Shown here: one piece after another, positions 8,024-31,741 of the stretch
Layout: the number at the start of each line of letters is the position of its first letter
Numbering within the stretch: the first letter of the stretch is position 1
Virus record (IMG/VR): IMGVR_UViG_3300012919_000008
Coordinates: 1-55,741 of that record
DNA from: a virus
DNA: 55,741 nt
Direction: 5' to 3' (one strand)
Made by a program: the position numbers and the translations under genes
Notes under the pieces: generated by a model
What the model saw: the letters and a program-made list of their open reading frames with translations, nothing else
The model's database searches: none
What the model was told of the DNA's origin: nothing

Positions 8024-10051
8024 TTACCTTCTTGCGTGTGTAGCATATTCCAATGTTAATGCGTCAAGCGCATATGGAACATCTGTGTTATTATCTGCTT
8101 CAAACTGTGCAGACACTGTATTTCCTGATCCTACTGTCTGTGCAGAAAATACCTTTTGTAGTTTAGCTCCAAAAGTAGCTGTGCCAAATACACCTGTACC
8201 AAAAAATTGAGAAGCATTACTAGATGCATTTGTAAATGTAACTGCTGGCATTACAACAGCCCCACTTTCATCAAAGTCAAACTTTAAGTTTAGATCAAAG
8301 TTAACTCTACCTTCAGGGTCTAAATAGAACTGTGCTTTATATATTGTCTTTCTAAGTCTTGGATCATTGATTGGATAGAACGGTGTAGCAAATGTAGTAG
8401 CTATATTATTACCATCAAAACTAGATGTGTCATTCTCCATTCTATGTAAGAAACCTTCTTTACCAGAAAAGATAACAAACTCTGTAGTGCCTGAATAAAC
8501 ACTGGCACATGCTGTTACCTGTATACCCCTAGTTTCTGCAAAGTCAATTACAGATTCTTCACCCGGTGATGCAAACTGTGTAAATAATATTCCTTGTGCA
8601 TTAGGTCTAGTAAAGTTTACATTCCAACCAAACAACCTATACTGTGATTTATTACGTACAACTAAACTAAAAAAGTCTGTGTGTAGTTTTACAAACTCAT
8701 TAAATGTACCCTGTATCTTTTTAGTTATAGGTGCTAAACCAAAGTCACCAATACGTTCAGTAGCACTAAGAAGTCTTAGACCATCAGGAGCCATAAAGAC
8801 AACATCACCACCTATCTCTTGTACACTGTCAGTCTGTGTACATCCTATGTCACGTGTTATAGGTTGTAAGTTAAACGTTGCTAGTGCATCACCATTTAAT
8901 CTAAAAATAGATGAGGTAGTAAAAACTATAAGCTGATCTCTAAAACTTTTTATTGCAACAATGTCAGCATCTAATCCTATACTACCAGCACCGTTACCAC
9001 TTTCAAAGTCTGTAGTAGTGAGTGGTGCACCAAAACTTAACACTCTACCTTTACCGTAGAATATGTGGTTCTTATGTGTAGCAACAACCTTTGCACCTAT
9101 CACATCTGATGGTGCACTGTCTAACACAGTAAATGTAGTACCATTATATAATGCAGGTGCATTTGTTCCGTCTACTATTACAAGTGTTGTAGTTCCTGTA
9201 AAGTCCACTTCATCAAAACGTGTATTAACTGCACCTTCTCTATCACTAGAAATAAAAGTTATAACTGCATTGTCTGCTGGACTACTCGCTAGTTCAGGAT
9301 GAATAGTTATATTTACTTCTTTACTAGCCGAATCAGAATATGATGAGACAGTTGTTTCAACTCTATACACGTTATCTATTGCAGCTAGGTTACTGCCATC
9401 AGCATTAGATATTGTAAATACATCACCTGCTTGTGGAAATGTATCAAAACCATCTGCCACTAATGTTGTGCCTGTTTGACTAGCACCGTCAACTAATGGT
9501 GTGCCATAGTTAGGTTTATTTATTTTAGTGTAACCACTACCTGATGTTTCTACTAAGTCAGCATTCATAGCAACGACAGCTTTAGCATTAAAGTATGTCA
9601 TGCCATTTGCATAGTTAGCTGTAGTAACTGTAACAAACGTAACCACTGCACCATTAGCAGGGCTTGAAGCTAGAGAACTAGTAAGTGTTAGTGTGACCTC
9701 ATCTCTAGCAGCATTATAACTGACACCACCTGAAGCTACTGTGTATGTGCCAGATACACCATCTATTGTAAGTGTGTCACCAACAGCAGGTGTAGTATGT
9801 ATGGCTCTTAATGCTAATGATGTACCTGATTGAGATGCACCATTTACAACTGGATTACCATATGGAGCTATGATAGCACTATCAAACTTTTCATATCCCT
9901 GTATACGTTTGTAACCTCCATCAATAGATGGTTCATAGTTACGTAGTATACGTGCAGAACCGGGTGCATTAATAGCCTGTTGCAGTGGGCTAAGATTAGT
10001 TATAAGCCCACCCTTAAACTCTATTCTAAAAGTCTCCCAAGCGTCAGGCAT
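8024..10051 (-). CDS. Putative tail tubular protein B (tail nozzle)
   Basis: This 675-residue protein follows the tail tubular A-like gene with a one-base overlap, in the usual podovirus order A, B, fibre. The N-terminus (GGLITNLSPLQQAINAPGSA, then LRNYEPSIDGGYKRIQGYE) resembles the opening of gp12-like nozzle and stabilisation proteins, which refer to marking and counting element coordinates. A beta-rich body follows, with two repeated blocks around residues 70-140 and 185-265 (NGASQSGTSL and DGASQTGTTL). It would form the distal tube of the short tail. The assignment rests on order and general resemblance and not on a catalytic motif. Confidence 0.65.
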   Translation of the reverse strand: MPDAWETFRIEFKGGLITNLSPLQQAINAPGSARILRNYEPSIDGGYKRIQGYEKFDSAIIAPYGNPVVNGASQSGTSLALRAIHTTPAVGDTLTIDGVSGTYTVASGGVSYNAARDEVTLTLTSSLASSPANGAVVTFVTVTTANYANGMTYFNAKAVVAMNADLVETSGSGYTKINKPNYGTPLVDGASQTGTTLVADGFDTFPQAGDVFTISNADGSNLAAIDNVYRVETTVSSYSDSASKEVNITIHPELASSPADNAVITFISSDREGAVNTRFDEVDFTGTTTLVIVDGTNAPALYNGTTFTVLDSAPSDVIGAKVVATHKNHIFYGKGRVLSFGAPLTTTDFESGNGAGSIGLDADIVAIKSFRDQLIVFTTSSIFRLNGDALATFNLQPITRDIGCTQTDSVQEIGGDVVFMAPDGLRLLSATERIGDFGLAPITKKIQGTFNEFVKLHTDFFSLVVRNKSQYRLFGWNVNFTRPNAQGILFTQFASPGEESVIDFAETRGIQVTACASVYSGTTEFVIFSGKEGFLHRMENDTSSFDGNNIATTFATPFYPINDPRLRKTIYKAQFYLDPEGRVNFDLNLKFDFDESGAVVMPAVTFTNASSNASQFFGTGVFGTATFGAKLQKVFSAQTVGSGNTVSAQFEADNNTDVPYALDALTLEYATHARR

Positions 10052-10800
10052 TATAGTGCATCCAAGCTAGATCCTGCTGTTGTTCTTGCAGACCCTAATC
10101 TACGTCCACCTGTACTTGCAGGTATCATATAAGATCTCATGTAATGGTATCTGTTAATAAGCATAGAACGCATTGCCTTAATACCTTCATCTGCTCTTTC
10201 TTTTAATATAACAGCATCCTGTGTATTACCTCTAAACATCAAAGCGTAAAACATAGCAGAGTCTACAACAACATGTTTAAACCTATCTGGTATTACCATT
10301 GTGTCATCGTGTGCAGATAGATCGCTTTGAAATACGTAGTAATCAAAAACTAATGTGTACGCTTGATCGGGTGGTTCTACTAAACCATACTTTAAGTCAG
10401 GTCCATGAAAAACAAAACGTGGCAATGCACGTTGCTGACTTGTTGCATATTCCTGATCTACATATTTTTCTAAATACTCATCATAAGTTATTATTGCTAG
10501 TTTTCTAGTGTCATTTCCTAATGTAGCATTCTCTTTAATTCTAAATGATTCAAAGTCAATTAACTTTGCATCTGTTGGAAATGCATAACGTGTAGTACCA
10601 GCAACTAATGTTTGTTCTTTTTCTGAATGATTAAAAGGCCACTCGTATTCACTCTCATTAATATAACGTATACCTGAGTTAACTGCATCTTTTGCGTGTG
10701 CATAAAAACCTGTAGCTGAAGCAAAGTTAGAGCTAGTAAGCTCCACCTCGTTCAGCCTTTTATTTATATCATTTACTAATGTTAAAAATGTTGTAGCCAT
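10051..10800 (-). CDS. Putative tail tubular protein A (head-tail adaptor)
   Basis: This 249-residue protein resembles gp11/gp4-like adaptors of podoviruses. The N-terminal helix region FLTLVNDINKRLNEVELTSS and the segment INESEYEWPF are typical of the family, followed by a beta-rich middle and a helical C-terminus with VVDSAMFYALMFRGN. Such proteins sit under the portal and connect it to the nozzle. It lies after a hairpin that separates it from the capsid genes and overlaps the next gene by one base. Family assignment is moderately secure. Confidence 0.68.
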   Translation of the reverse strand: MATTFLTLVNDINKRLNEVELTSSNFASATGFYAHAKDAVNSGIRYINESEYEWPFNHSEKEQTLVAGTTRYAFPTDAKLIDFESFRIKENATLGNDTRKLAIITYDEYLEKYVDQEYATSQQRALPRFVFHGPDLKYGLVEPPDQAYTLVFDYYVFQSDLSAHDDTMVIPDRFKHVVVDSAMFYALMFRGNTQDAVILKERADEGIKAMRSMLINRYHYMRSYMIPASTGGRRLGSARTTAGSSLDAL

Positions 10801-24628: not shown

Positions 24629-24661
24629 CATAGTTATACTCATTAGATCAACCCCTGTCAA
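24629..24661 (-). promoter_or_regulatory. Main late promoter, TTGACA-N17-TATAACTATG
   Basis: On the minus strand a perfect -35 TTGACA (24661-24656) and a -10 TATAAC (24638-24633) are 17 bases apart, and the sequence continues as TATAACTATG. It precedes the first gene of the minus-strand module, which has a leader of about 100 bases. AT-rich A-tracts lie directly upstream. The same 10-base -10 element is present in two other promoters here. Confidence 0.8.
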
Positions 24662-24700
24662 CTAAAAAATTAAAAAATACTAAAAATAATTAAAAATATC
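24662..24700 (-). promoter_or_regulatory. Spaced A-tracts upstream of the late promoter (UP-element-like)
   Basis: Four A/T runs of five to six bases lie at roughly 8-10-base intervals immediately upstream of the late -35 hexamer. On the minus strand they read as T-tracts. Such tracts bend DNA and often act as UP elements that contact the polymerase alpha subunits. It fits a strong promoter. Confidence 0.5.
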
Positions 24701-25063
24701 GTAAATGTGTGTCTAATATGCAACATATTATTGTCAGTTGCTACTGTGGTTAACACTTAATTTTCCTAATCTGTGTGTTTGTACAAGCATATATACGTAC
24801 CAACGGGGGGTGGACCATGCCCTGACTGCCATTTTTTTAAAAATAATCTTTTTTTTGAGACATTTTTTAAGATCCGCAGAAAATAAGGCTTTTTTGTCTC
24901 GACTCAAGATTTAAAAGGCAACTGATATGGCATCAGTTCCTTTCATTTGATCTTTTCGATGGTGGGGTTTTTGGGTGGTGCTCTTTTGACAACAGACAAC
25001 TATGAAATGAAGCACCCTATCCCCTCACTTCAAATGGTCCACAAAATACCACCCCATCAAATC
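24701..25063. other. Rest of divergent intergenic region, no gene seen
   Basis: No convincing reading frame or tRNA is present in this 360-base stretch. It contains long T-runs (24830-24900), a GAGACA/TGTCTC inverted pair at 24857-24862 and 24895-24900, and a clear hairpin AACTGAT-ATGGC-ATCAGTT at 24920-24938. GGTGCT/AGCACC arms lie at 24977-24982 and 25011-25016. The AT-rich part could include the replication origin, but no specific origin element is recognised. Confidence 0.35.
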
Positions 25064-25080
25064 GGTGGGACTGTCCCACC
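25064..25080. promoter_or_regulatory. Palindrome GGTGGGACTGTCCCACC, copy 1
   Basis: A perfect 17-base inverted repeat with one central base. It lies 34 bases before the -35 of the first early promoter. Three more copies of its 15-base core GTGGGAC(T/A)GTCCCAC are found at 26050-26066, 26903-26917 and 29906-29922, all in the early module and at or next to gene starts. It is probably a binding site for a dimeric regulator. Confidence 0.65.
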
Positions 25081-25087
25081 TTAAATT

Positions 25088-25110
25088 ATTTCGGCTGCAG
25101 TAGCTTAAAC
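25088..25110 (+). repeat. 23-base direct repeat, copy 1
   Basis: A 23-base sequence that includes TTTCGGCTGCAGTAGCTTAA occurs unchanged at 26018-26040. The two copies, each beside a GTGGGAC palindrome, bracket the first early gene together with its promoter and terminator. The core CTGCAG is palindromic. This copy ends 3 bases before the -35 of the early promoter. Confidence 0.7.
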
Positions 25111-25113
25111 CAT

Positions 25114-25142
25114 TTGACTGTATTTGATCACTTCTATATAAG
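25114..25142 (+). promoter_or_regulatory. Early promoter, TTGACT-N17-TATAAG
   Basis: TTGACT (25114-25119) and TATAAG (25137-25142) are each one base off consensus and separated by 17 bases. It lies 55 bases before the first early gene. A GATCACTT half-site shared with the late operator sits in the spacer at 25127-25134, which would suit repression. It differs from the TATAACTATG promoters, consistent with immediate use by host polymerase. Confidence 0.7.
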
Positions 25143-25196
25143 AGTAGTTATTCCACATCGTTTGAATGTGGTTTTTAACCAATGAGGTAAACAAAA

Positions 25197-25799
25197 ATGA
25201 AAAAGTTAGATACTACAAAAGAATTAGAATTCGTTGCAGATATTGCTCAGGAACTATTACCGAAAATTAAAAAAGGTAATCAAGAATTCAGGAAAGAAGT
25301 ATTTTCGGGTCGAACATCTGAAATGCTCACTTCTATGAATAAGCTACTTGATGTAGATGATAAGTTTCAGTGGGGTGATACTTTCAAAGGTTACACAAAG
25401 GAACAAAGGAAAGCCTATGTGTTTGTAGCTAAGAATTTGCACCATGCAATCAAGTTAAACAAAGAAAATGGTTATCATAAGCTAATCACTAAAAAAGATG
25501 GTAGCACCGAAAATAAGAAAGTTGATTTCTACAGTGGTACATCTATGGAGGGTTTAGAAAAAATGCTCCGTAGGTACATTGCTTATCTTGATGGTCCATC
25601 TGCTAAAAGCTACCAATCATTTGAAAAGCTAATTGATCACGTAGTTGAACACGTTCAAACGCAAGGTTACAACTACAAAGAATTAGTTGAATGTTGCGCT
25701 CAATTGTTAGGCTTTGAAATTGATAGTGATAGTTCTGATATTAACGTCTTAGAATTAGATCCTCTAACAATCGAAAAGAAATCCAAAAAAGTAGCTTAA
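25197..25799 (+). CDS. First early gene, unknown function, own promoter and terminator
   Basis: A 200-residue charged protein without membrane segment or known domain. Parts such as EFVADIAQELLPKIKKGNQE and GLEKMLRRYIAYLDGPSAKS look helical. The ATG has GAGG 9 bases upstream. It is the only gene between a plus promoter (25114) and a strong terminator (25822), and its neighbourhood is bracketed by two copies of a 23-base repeat and a palindrome. Being first expressed, it may act in host takeover or regulation. That is an inference; nothing in the sequence shows the activity. It also fits the layout of a phage moron gene. Confidence 0.8.
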   Translation: MKKLDTTKELEFVADIAQELLPKIKKGNQEFRKEVFSGRTSEMLTSMNKLLDVDDKFQWGDTFKGYTKEQRKAYVFVAKNLHHAIKLNKENGYHKLITKKDGSTENKKVDFYSGTSMEGLEKMLRRYIAYLDGPSAKSYQSFEKLIDHVVEHVQTQGYNYKELVECCAQLLGFEIDSDSSDINVLELDPLTIEKKSKKVA

Positions 25800-25821
25800 T
25801 ACTTTAAACCTTTTTAACTTA

Positions 25822-25852
25822 GGGTGATAGCTTCGGTTATCACCCTTTTTTT
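25822..25852 (+). terminator. Strong intrinsic terminator with UUCG loop
   Basis: GGGTGATAGC pairs with GTTATCACCC around a TTCG tetraloop (one G-T wobble), followed by seven T residues. It lies 22 bases after the stop of the first early gene. It separates this gene from the next transcription unit. Confidence 0.9.
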
Positions 25853-25873
25853 ATGCCTAGATTTAGAACCCAT

Positions 25874-25947
25874 TTAAACGCTCATACAGCACCCTTAAAT
25901 CGTTTCTAGTACTATCCTACCTTAAACACCTTAAACGCTCTTACAGC
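25874..25947 (+). repeat. Imperfect 17-base direct repeats and TTAAAC motifs
   Basis: TTAAACGCTCATACAGC (25874-25890) and TTAAACGCTCTTACAGC (25931-25947) differ at one base. The hexamer TTAAAC also occurs at 25922, and within both copies of the 23-base repeat (25105, 26035). These repeats lie between the terminator and the next promoter. They may be binding sites or iteron-like elements. Confidence 0.5.
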
Positions 25948-25962
25948 GCATTCTCGACAGTC

Positions 25963-25992
25963 TTGACTGTATCCCATGCTCTAAGCTACTAT
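25963..25992 (+). promoter_or_regulatory. Possible second early promoter, TTGACT-N18-TACTAT
   Basis: TTGACT (25963-25968) shares the -35 of the first early promoter and is followed 18 bases on by TACTAT, a weaker -10. It is placed after the terminator and before the run of small early genes that starts at 26091, where a new promoter is needed. The 23-base repeat and a palindrome lie downstream in the leader. Confidence 0.45.
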
Positions 25993-26017
25993 AGGTATAG
26001 TTAGAAATCACTTATTG

Positions 26018-26040
26018 ATTTCGGCTGCAGTAGCTTAAAC
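26018..26040 (+). repeat. 23-base direct repeat, copy 2
   Basis: Identical to 25088-25110. It is followed at once by GATCACTT and then by palindrome copy 2, so the order of elements differs from copy 1, where the palindrome precedes the repeat. Confidence 0.7.
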
Positions 26041-26049
26041 GATCACTTA

Positions 26050-26066
26050 GGTGGGACTGTCCCACC
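26050..26066. promoter_or_regulatory. Palindrome GGTGGGACTGTCCCACC, copy 2
   Basis: A perfect 17-base inverted repeat identical to copy 1. It lies 24 bases before the ATG at 26091, in the leader of the second early unit. It could act as DNA operator or as an RNA hairpin close to the ribosome site. Confidence 0.65.
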
Positions 26067-26090: not shown

Positions 26091-26309
26091 ATGAAATACA
26101 AAAGAATTGTAGAAAAATCGAGTGACAAATTGTCGAGTTGGTATCCAAAACAAGTTGGACGAGTTGTTGACGACATGTCGCTAATGACGAACCGACAATT
26201 TGACGAGATGTTTAGACGAGTATCGCATAAACCTAGACGAGTTGACACGAAGCTAAATGCAATGCTATCCATAATCAGACAACAACAAGGAAGGACGAGT
26301 ACTAAATGA
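26091..26309 (+). CDS. Small basic early protein, unknown function
   Basis: A 72-residue basic protein from the ATG at 26091; an in-frame TTG at 26073 is unlikely because it lies before the GAAAGG site. It contains KRIVEKSSDKLSSWYPKQVG and DTKLNAMLSIIRQQQG, probably helical. It opens the cluster of small early genes behind the repeat and palindrome and overlaps the next gene as ATGA. No family is recognised. Confidence 0.65.
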   Translation: MKYKRIVEKSSDKLSSWYPKQVGRVVDDMSLMTNRQFDEMFRRVSHKPRRVDTKLNAMLSIIRQQQGRTSTK

Positions 26310-26608
26310 CAAAACACGTTTTGCTTCACGATGACTACGTGAAACGCAAGAAACAGTTTGAGGAAAAAGGTAGAACTGCTTACCTTGCAAGTGACGTCGA
26401 AAATTTTGCCAGCCTTACAGCAGAGTTTATGGCGTTTGTCGATACATACATTGACGGCATAACCGACAAGTATTTGAAACGAGATCGTCTGTTTTGTAAG
26501 ACGCTTGTCACACAAAGACAAATCATTAAAGACTACGAAAGTTTTATTGATGACATAAAGCAAAGGGTGGACGATAACTTTGCCGAAGTAGCGAGAGGAG
26601 GTGACTAA
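26306..26608 (+). CDS. Small early protein, unknown function
   Basis: A 100-residue charged, helical protein, for example LTAEFMAFVDTYIDGITDKY and QIIKDYESFIDDIKQRVDD. It overlaps the previous gene by four bases (ATGA), indicating coupled translation. The next small gene starts directly at its end. I do not recognise a family or motif. Confidence 0.65.
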   Translation: MTKHVLLHDDYVKRKKQFEEKGRTAYLASDVENFASLTAEFMAFVDTYIDGITDKYLKRDRLFCKTLVTQRQIIKDYESFIDDIKQRVDDNFAEVARGGD

Positions 26609-26767
26609 ATGACAATGGACATAGTGACGAGAGGTGACGACGAGAAGATTGCGTACCTCGAAATGGAGAACTTAGCAGTGATGCGTGACAATCGTATCCT
26701 TGCCAATCTGATACTCAAACAAGAGAAGTTAATTGAAAGGTTAAAGAGAAAGGCGATAGAGATATGA
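26609..26767 (+). CDS. 52-residue early protein, unknown function
   Basis: A short gene with ATG at 26609, 8 bases after an AGGAGG ribosome site in the previous gene. The product is MTMDIVTRGDDEK followed by a helical, charged part with EMENLAVMRDNRILANLILK and ends KRKAIEI. Its stop overlaps the next start as ATGA. Coupling on both sides supports it. Confidence 0.6.
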   Translation: MTMDIVTRGDDEKIAYLEMENLAVMRDNRILANLILKQEKLIERLKRKAIEI

Positions 26768-26922
26768 ATCAAGTTGATAAATTCTTTAATGACTTTGTTA
26801 TGCTTCACAATGCCATGCAAGCCAAGACAGAGCAGGACACTAGACGCACAAAGTTAGAGGAGATCGACAGGACATGGGCAGCCATACAAGCCATTGACAC
26901 AAGTGGGACTGTCCCACGATGA
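26764..26922 (+). CDS. 52-residue early protein whose end encodes a palindrome
   Basis: It starts ATGA-coupled to the previous gene. The product opens MNQVDKFFNDFVMLHNAM and has a helical middle QDTRRTKLEEIDRTWAAIQ. The last residues TSGTVPR are encoded by palindrome copy 3, so the regulatory-like site is inside the coding sequence. It is coupled to a membrane peptide that starts at 26919. Unknown function. Confidence 0.6.
   Translation: MNQVDKFFNDFVMLHNAMQAKTEQDTRRTKLEEIDRTWAAIQAIDTSGTVPR
26903..26917. promoter_or_regulatory. Palindrome GTGGGACTGTCCCAC, copy 3, inside a gene end
   Basis: The 15-base core of the early palindrome, within the last codons of the gene at 26764-26922 and one base before the ATG of the next. 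Its preservation inside coding sequence argues that the site itself is selected. Confidence 0.55.
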
Positions 26923-29905: not shown

Positions 29906-29922
29906 GGTGGGACAGTCCCACC
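29906..29922. promoter_or_regulatory. Palindrome GGTGGGACAGTCCCACC, copy 4
   Basis: Begins at the base after the preceding gene's stop and has the central base A instead of T, so it equals the other copies read on the opposite strand. It sits 30 bases before an extended -10 promoter, a position that suits an activator or repressor. Confidence 0.65.
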
Positions 29923-30799: not shown

Positions 30800-31237
30800 A
30801 TGTTAAGTGAAACCATACTTGCAGTAGGTGCTACGATCACGTGTCTTGCTCAGAACATTTACTTTGAGGCACGTGATCAACCTACCATAGGACAACGTGC
30901 AGTGGCAGAGGTGGTGTTGAACCGTGTGCATGATCCACGTTGGCCTGATACTGTGTGCGAGGTGATACGTGAAGGACCAACGTATAGTTGGAAGCAGGAC
31001 TACCCAATCAAACACAGGTGTCAGTTCAGTTGGTATTGTGATGGCCTATCAGATAAACCAAAGGACCAACGTGCGTGGTCAAAGGCTATTGCCATAGCAG
31101 AGGACGTATTCTTTTCATATGGCTTATCAATTAACACGGTGGACGGTGCTACCTTTTACCATGCCACTAACGTAGACCCGGAGTGGAGAAACGTAGAGTA
31201 CATAGTAACAATAGAAGATCATATATTTTATAGATAG
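30800..31237 (+). CDS. SleB-type cell wall hydrolase
   Basis: A 145-residue protein of the SleB/Hydrolase_2 family, which cuts peptidoglycan. It shows the catalytic-type Glu E23 in NIYFEARDQPTIGQ, then AVAEVVLNRV, WPDTVCEVI, CQFSWYCDG and ATFYHA. The first 18 residues are hydrophobic and may serve as signal or anchor. It lies in the early module on the plus strand, away from the late GH24 endolysin. It could be a virion-independent lysis helper, a cell wall remodeller, or a superinfection-related factor. The fold assignment is strong, the role is not. Confidence 0.85.
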   Translation: MLSETILAVGATITCLAQNIYFEARDQPTIGQRAVAEVVLNRVHDPRWPDTVCEVIREGPTYSWKQDYPIKHRCQFSWYCDGLSDKPKDQRAWSKAIAIAEDVFFSYGLSINTVDGATFYHATNVDPEWRNVEYIVTIEDHIFYR

Positions 31238-31246
31238 GATAATGAC

Positions 31247-31741
31247 ATGAATATATTTTTTATAGACAAAAATCCAATCAAAGCAGCTCGACAACTATGT
31301 GACAAGCATGTGGTCAAGATGGTATTGGAAACTGCTCAGATGTGTAGCACTGCATTACATGAGTGGTGCTTTGAGGATGAACCTATATTGAAAGAGATAT
31401 ATAAACCTGCATACAAAAATCATCCCATGACTGTATGGGTACGAGAGAATGATGCCAACATGACATGGGCTGTAGCACATGGTCTTGAGATAGGCAGAGA
31501 GTACACACGTAGATATGGCAAGCACCATAAGAGCACAGCTATAATGAAGAAGATAGCTGCATATATGTTTCACGATAACTTTGACGAGGACTTCAGGTTA
31601 CACACCACACCACCACAGTGTATGCCAGACCAGTTTAAGTGTGACGATTATGTAGAGGCGTATCGCAACTACTATCGCACAGATAAGGCACACATATTAC
31701 AATGGACAAACACACCACAACCTACATGGATTGCAGCTTGA
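31247..31741 (+). CDS. Conserved phage protein, CDKHVVKM family
   Basis: A 164-residue protein. It opens MNIFFIDKNPIKAARQLCDK and continues HVVKMVLETAQM, then KNHPMTVWVREN, YGKHHKST and MPDQFK, VEAYRNYYRTDKAHI, WTNTPQPTW. This conserved pattern with several His residues is seen in many bacteriophages. It is sometimes annotated as a DNA repair enzyme; I cannot confirm this from sequence. It starts 9 bases after the SleB-type gene. Confident as a gene, not as to function. Confidence 0.72.
   Translation: MNIFFIDKNPIKAARQLCDKHVVKMVLETAQMCSTALHEWCFEDEPILKEIYKPAYKNHPMTVWVRENDANMTWAVAHGLEIGREYTRRYGKHHKSTAIMKKIAAYMFHDNFDEDFRLHTTPPQCMPDQFKCDDYVEAYRNYYRTDKAHILQWTNTPQPTWIAA

Follow-up and report, generated by a model that had tools for sequence, protein, structure and literature searches.

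A putative palindrome-binding regulator encoded by the first early gene of an HMO-2011-type phage

The window analyzed here is an entire viral record (IMG/VR IMGVR_UViG_3300012919_000008; 55,741 nucleotides). Its DNA polymerase, which carries a DnaJ-like insert, is 67% identical to that of Puniceispirillum phage HMO-2011 and 64-65% identical to those of Roseobacter phages CRP-345 and CRP-1. The right arm encodes this polymerase together with an integrase, a primase, a helicase, endonuclease I and a ribonucleotide reductase. Judging by these genes, the window is an HMO-2011-type phage, a type that is among the dominant marine phages (PMC9038755). The early region also encodes a Pyr_excise domain (pyrimidine-dimer DNA glycosylase; 31247-31738) and a Hydrolase_2 domain (cell-wall hydrolase; 30800-31234). 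The close relatives compared with the window were the contigs L002, L057 and L034, the last of which stops inside gene 1. A scan with a conserved control-region motif brought in HMO-2011 and nine further uncultured relatives, and profile scans gave 37 and 46 further loci, which overlap in part.

A conserved non-coding element at 24700-24820, in the divergent control region, is 99-100% identical in L002, L057 and L034 and 83% identical over 76 nt to HMO-2011; it could be a control region or an origin. It adjoins a likely leftward promoter, TTGACA-17-TATAAC (24634-24661, minus strand), a pattern match that is conserved in relatives and faces away from the early region. To the right lies gene 1 (25197-25799, plus strand), an intact ORF of 200 aa that, as a preliminary description of this DNA had said, has its own promoter. 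This is a sigma-70-type promoter, TTGACT-17-TATAAG (25114-25142, plus strand), predicted from its sequence pattern and from its conservation in four genomes as TTGAC[TA]-N17-TATAA[CG]. A standard promoter scan misses it because the last base of its -10 box is G. The pattern TTGACN-N15-17-TATAA has four matches in the window, including this one, with 0.9 expected. A hairpin in the leader, close to where the RNA is predicted to start (25153-25171, plus strand), which the preliminary description had not mentioned, shows two compensatory pairs across four phages. The UUCG terminator that had been reported is present at 25821-25846 (plus strand) as an intrinsic terminator with an 11-bp stem, a TTCG loop and a T-run; its pairs are kept in L002 and L057, and compensatory changes are seen in relatives. 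A search of Rfam for a known RNA element gave no match at threshold. This segment is the first early transcription unit and is self-contained.

The elements around gene 1 are ordered palindrome-repeat-gene-repeat-palindrome. The 23-nt direct repeat, ATTTCGGCTGCAGTAGCTTAAAC, is exact at 25088-25110 and 26018-26040, with both copies in one orientation (plus strand) and 0.00 expected by chance. The palindrome, GGTGGGACTGTCCCACC, with the core GTGGGACTGTCCCAC, is exact at 25064-25080 and 26050-26066, with 0.01 expected by chance, and the first copy is kept in L002, L034 and L057. The duplication of control elements, both repeat and palindrome, is therefore real. Copy 1 of the repeat is a 21-22 bp insertion between operator-like palindrome 1 and the -35 box. 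Palindrome 2 lies within the leader of gene 2 (26091-26309, plus strand; 72 aa), downstream of a likely promoter, TTGACT-18-TACTAT (25963-25992, plus strand), whose hexamers and spacing are conserved in L002 and L057. The palindrome occurs at two other positions as well. Copy 3, at 26902-26918, lies upstream of a GP88-like gene and has two mismatches to the 17-mer with the 15-mer core intact, and copy 4, at 29906-29922, has an extended -10 box 30 bp downstream. These copies had gone unmentioned, and with them the palindromes on the two sides of gene 1 keep their exactness and lose the role of borders that had been given to them. CACTTAAGTG was considered as a second repeated operator of the window and was rejected, as its count was not above chance. 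In the conserved non-coding stretch past the terminator, TTAAACGCTCNTACAGC is repeated at 25874-25890 and 25931-25947; it is iteron-like and partly degenerate in L057. An attachment-site reading of the 23-bp repeat was also rejected, since no tRNA was found in the window and the repeat stands only beside two operators.

A unit with its own promoter and terminator, and with repeats and palindromes on both sides, might be mobile cargo, and the preliminary description had proposed a moron gene, acquired as the segment between the 23-bp repeats and losable by recombination between them. The divergent alleles described below, which imply that the gene body is exchanged, would also suit this explanation. 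Relatives were therefore compared for presence or absence of the repeat-bracketed segment, as that description had advised. The gene was always present, an outcome that the description itself had set against a moron. In both L002 and L057, gene 1 keeps its place, with the promoter/leader before it and the terminator after it as in the window; L034 is alike up to the contig end inside gene 1, and the other relatives examined have a similar-sized first gene. No fused-repeat (excision) site was found in L002, L057 or L034. The repeat occupies both sites in L002 and neither in L057, which nonetheless keeps the gene, and the 5' site is empty in L034. The palindrome, moreover, has its two further copies elsewhere. 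For the sampled relatives the moron reading is refuted, and overall we regard it as highly improbable.

The repeat has a history of its own. An exact scan of viral contigs found it only in L002, in two copies. The alleles of gene 1 fall into two classes, window and L034 versus L002 and L057, and all four combinations of repeat presence and allele class occur at the 5' site, so the repeat and the allele move independently. The repeat appears to be a separate, recent insertion beside two operators, not an excision border. Among the relatives with the control motif, the first rightward gene of substantial length codes for 170-217 aa wherever the contig reaches far enough (the truncated contig L101 has only a 109-aa ORF), and more distant HMO-2011-type phages also have a first gene of 170-217 aa at the gene 1 position. 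This makes it a core position of the HMO-2011-type group and not cargo. One gene downstream, gene 3 (26306-26608) is exactly absent from L002, with a junction at the 12-bp direct repeat ACTAAATGACAA (window 26301-26312 and 26604-26615; L002 ~1908-1920); a repeat-to-repeat deletion of the sort sought thus exists one gene away. In L057, gene 3 is instead followed by an additional gene of 72 aa. Flanking repeats around an isolated first early gene need not mark it as cargo.

What survives of the acquired-cassette claim is an exchange of the gene body between phages, not a moron bracketed by repeats. The flanks are 79-100% identical to those of the relatives, except for 70% identity in L057 across the 3' operator/repeat stretch, and gene 2 is 94-97% identical. 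Over most of its length, the coding sequence of gene 1 has 36-60% identity to the other allele class, and the proteins are only 23-43% identical across alleles. The last 20 codons of the window gene are 100% identical to those of L002. The dS of gene 1 is 1.5 between the window and L034, 0.74 between L002 and L057, and otherwise saturated, compared to mostly 0.04-0.3 for neighboring genes; the L002 methylase, at 0.56, diverges too. Since dS is high together with dN, gene 1 points to the import of divergent alleles by homologous recombination and not to rapid point evolution alone.

This pattern bears on another possible explanation, in which gene 1 encodes a fast-evolving host-takeover or anti-defence protein that is made first, a role for which the preliminary description had named it a good candidate, and the palindromes are bound by another protein, such as the product of gene 2 or a host factor. 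The first early gene, with a strong promoter, is where such a protein would be expected, and alleles of 23-43% identity within near-identical flanks resemble an arms-race locus. Gene 2, with 93-94% amino acid conservation, is an alternative candidate for the operator binder, as it is conserved along with the operators. However, the dS values argue for allele import over point diversification, and in relatives the first gene and the operators covary, as described below. There was also no match to defence-related families, including a search of the window protein against PADLOC, a library of defence-system proteins. We consider this explanation unlikely, and a DNA-binding regulator has the stronger support.

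The four palindrome copies in the window are all in the early region, and their positions are shared by L002 and L057. HMO-2011, CRP-1, CRP-345 and ~45 uncultured relatives (about 50 in all) each have their own repeated early-region palindrome, usually in 3-7 copies and in ~4-5 copies per genome where the sequence suffices. The palindrome is GTGGGACWGTCCCAC in the window lineage, AGTCCGACAGCGGACT in HMO-2011, TGTCACGGCGTGACA in L107, and GTCCAATGTTGGAC, GTCCAACCTTGGAC, GTCCGATGTCGGAC or GTCCTACCTAGGAC in other relatives. The sites change jointly within a genome, for example among GTCCG..CGGAC, GTCCA..TGGAC and GTCCT..AGGAC. No copy was found in the 39.5 kb of later sequence in HMO-2011 or in CRP-1. 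In relatives the first site lies 110-460 bp upstream of gene 1, and sites occur both between and inside genes; 34 of 192 are within gene 1 and are translated there as a linker of the S[ND]VGQ type. An internal copy is also present at corresponding positions in the integrase genes of L084 (CRP-1; ~6867) and L083 (CRP-345; ~7078). In L107, a more distant relative, the stretch 8056-10680 holds a different first gene (217 aa) and a six-copy palindrome, TGTCACGNCGTGACA, which together are a candidate for an independent gene-operator pair.

Site positions relative to promoters provide some indication of the sign of regulation. At ~17 loci in relatives, the site abuts a conserved TATACT/TATAAT -10 box with its centre at ~+6, and the count of sites in the 0 to +19 bin is 4-fold above control. 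Judged from these predicted promoters, such a placement is repressor-like. For the phages of the window lineage, operators 3 and 4, and operator 1 when the repeat is missing, would be about 51-55 bp upstream of the predicted starts, a geometry more in keeping with an activator than with a simple repressor. The gene 1 protein could then activate early/middle promoters from about 50-55 bp upstream of the start. Operator 1 in L034 and L057 and operators 3 and 4 would indeed be centred near -51 to -55, and the 21-22 bp repeat insertion preserves the helical face. Nevertheless, the predicted starts are consensus matches only, operator 2 is downstream of its promoter, and in relatives the operators overlap the start, making the activator variant quite doubtful. 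Repression would be more likely than activation and is favoured by the relatives, and the geometry of the window lineage is compatible with activation. In L175, L177 and L187, for example, a conserved promoter block, TAGTGAAAGTGT..TCACTTAGATATACTAGACA, directly adjoins an operator at +2100 to +2650 from gene 1, and an AAGTG/CACTT inverted motif in this block suggests a second regulator.

The relatives were also used to look for covariation between the gene 1 protein and its operators, with 43 non-redundant sequences and 165 columns of the protein. For the inner operator base, residue 86 was the best of the 165 columns, with Q paired with non-A in 16/16 cases and R with A in 24/27. An initial set of 33 sequences had given residue 86 as the one column with an identity shared by both G-operator clades and not seen in the A-operator group. 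The strict one-to-one Q86/R86 rule from that set was dropped when more sequences gave three exceptions, L161, L162 and L165, which have R86 with non-A operators and indicate that residue 86 is not the sole determinant. For the outer operator base, residue 69 was the best column (R with purine 31/31, Q with pyrimidine 7/7 and N with mixed 3/3). Residue 85 (K/R) was rejected as the outer-base determinant; L191, which has R69, R85 and a purine outer base, favours residue 69. On a tree constructed with residues 66-90 omitted, both Q69 and Q86 have multiple origins, and the changes mostly coincide. In 20/20 comparisons with 10 control families of proteins encoded at these loci, gene 1 had the better column. 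The HMO-2011 model has a confident helix-turn-helix-like segment (72-77, 85-96), and residues 69 and 86 are either next to it or within it. These results make it very probable that the first gene of the HMO-2011/CRP-1 family encodes an operator-binding regulator. The tight coupling of the operators to gene 1 in relatives also makes a host-encoded binder of the palindromes less likely.

The window lineage has one operator common to all its phages, and the covariation evidence comes from the relatives. Like HMO-2011 gp74, CRP-1 gp01 and CRP-345 gp01, which are annotated as 'hypothetical protein' and are 205-210 aa long, the window protein is encoded by the first rightward early gene after the conserved control element, and its position, its size and the presence of a set of palindromic operators match. 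The window and HMO-2011 models have the same order of helices, judged by eye from element lists. Sequence similarity of the window protein to the family is marginal. With hhalign, the window protein aligned collinearly with the gp74 family at P 0.0076 and a probability of ~5%, and 0/100 shuffles were as good; the trimmed core gave 3/100 and was not significant. This alignment places TKEQRKAYVFVAKN of the window protein on the recognition-helix segment of the family. K68, E69 and R71 (K68-E69-x-R71, a helix start of the form KE[QE]R) are invariant across the alleles of 23-43% identity, and the operator is unchanged. The operators of the two groups differ, GTCC-N6-GGAC in the relatives and GGGAC-N-GTCCC in the window, and the second site of the relatives is often inside gene 1. 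The claim that the protein is unrelated to known families held, as it had no match above threshold in Pfam, PHROGs, the PDB (sequence and fold) or a viral fold library. The structure prediction that had been recommended did yield a model, which was poor (mean pLDDT 56), and neither it nor the HMO-2011 model gave a significant fold match. No homologue was found in isolated phages, and a pattern scan of bacterial and archaeal genomes found no cellular or prophage homologues. Position, helix order, the KE[QE]R start and the weak profile similarity suggest that window gene 1 probably encodes an operator-binding regulator. That it binds its own palindrome and belongs with the HMO-2011 gp74 family as a homologue is inferred, as is whether it represses or activates. 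In the window lineage, the product of the conserved gene 2 is an equally possible binder.

Our main reading, to which we assign a probability of roughly 0.6, is that the first early transcription unit encodes a palindrome-binding regulator, most likely a repressor, whose alleles are exchanged. The gene 1 product would be a small helical DNA-binding protein that most likely sits as a dimer on 15-17-bp palindromes. Its operators would be in the gene 1 control region (25064), in the gene 2 leader (26050) and ahead of another two early genes (26902 and 29906). Repression is its most likely action, which may serve early shut-off and/or immunity in the integrase-carrying members of the group, with autoregulation. 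Homologous recombination in the conserved flanks would swap the gene body, and the operators, promoter, hairpin and terminator would stay.

This arrangement can be compared to known phage regulators. Lambda-type CI and Cro are early helix-turn-helix regulators that act on palindromic operators, with specificity set by the first residues of the recognition helix, and the proposed system may be analogous on all three points. It differs in that there is no CI/Cro sequence or fold match and in that its operators are spread over ~5 kb and are not clustered at two control regions. The L5-type (Cluster A) mycobacteriophages have stoperators, asymmetric 13-bp sites that number up to ~30 per genome and have one predominant orientation (PMC6550527, PMC9283540). 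Their repressor system is alike in having many lineage-specific sites, some at promoters and some not, and in that sites and repressor change together (PMC6550527, PMC9283540). Here, however, there are 4-7 palindromes confined to the early region. The HMO-2011-type system would therefore resemble operator/stoperator systems in its logic without being a member, since site type, number and distribution differ. No account of early regulation or of a repressor/operator in HMO-2011-type phages was found in the literature searched. A comparative paper on these phages gives core genes and integrases, and neither 'promoter' nor 'early' was found in its text.

A broader proposal, for which we see about an even chance, is that these proteins form an undescribed family of early regulators in HMO-2011-type phages, possibly the missing immunity repressor of the integrase-bearing members. 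A two-residue code (69 and 86) would read the outer and inner bases of the palindrome, and the window lineage would be a strongly diverged member, with the half-site arrangement GGGAC-N-GTCCC, that swaps alleles and keeps its operators. CRP-3 is known to lysogenise (PMC6918029). If the proposal is true, gene 1 would be a candidate lysogeny switch for integrase-bearing members. A first-gene regulator with a residue-to-base code would also allow the immunity groups of uncultured marine phages to be predicted from sequence, and a protein-to-DNA code would be readable across a very abundant group of ocean viruses.
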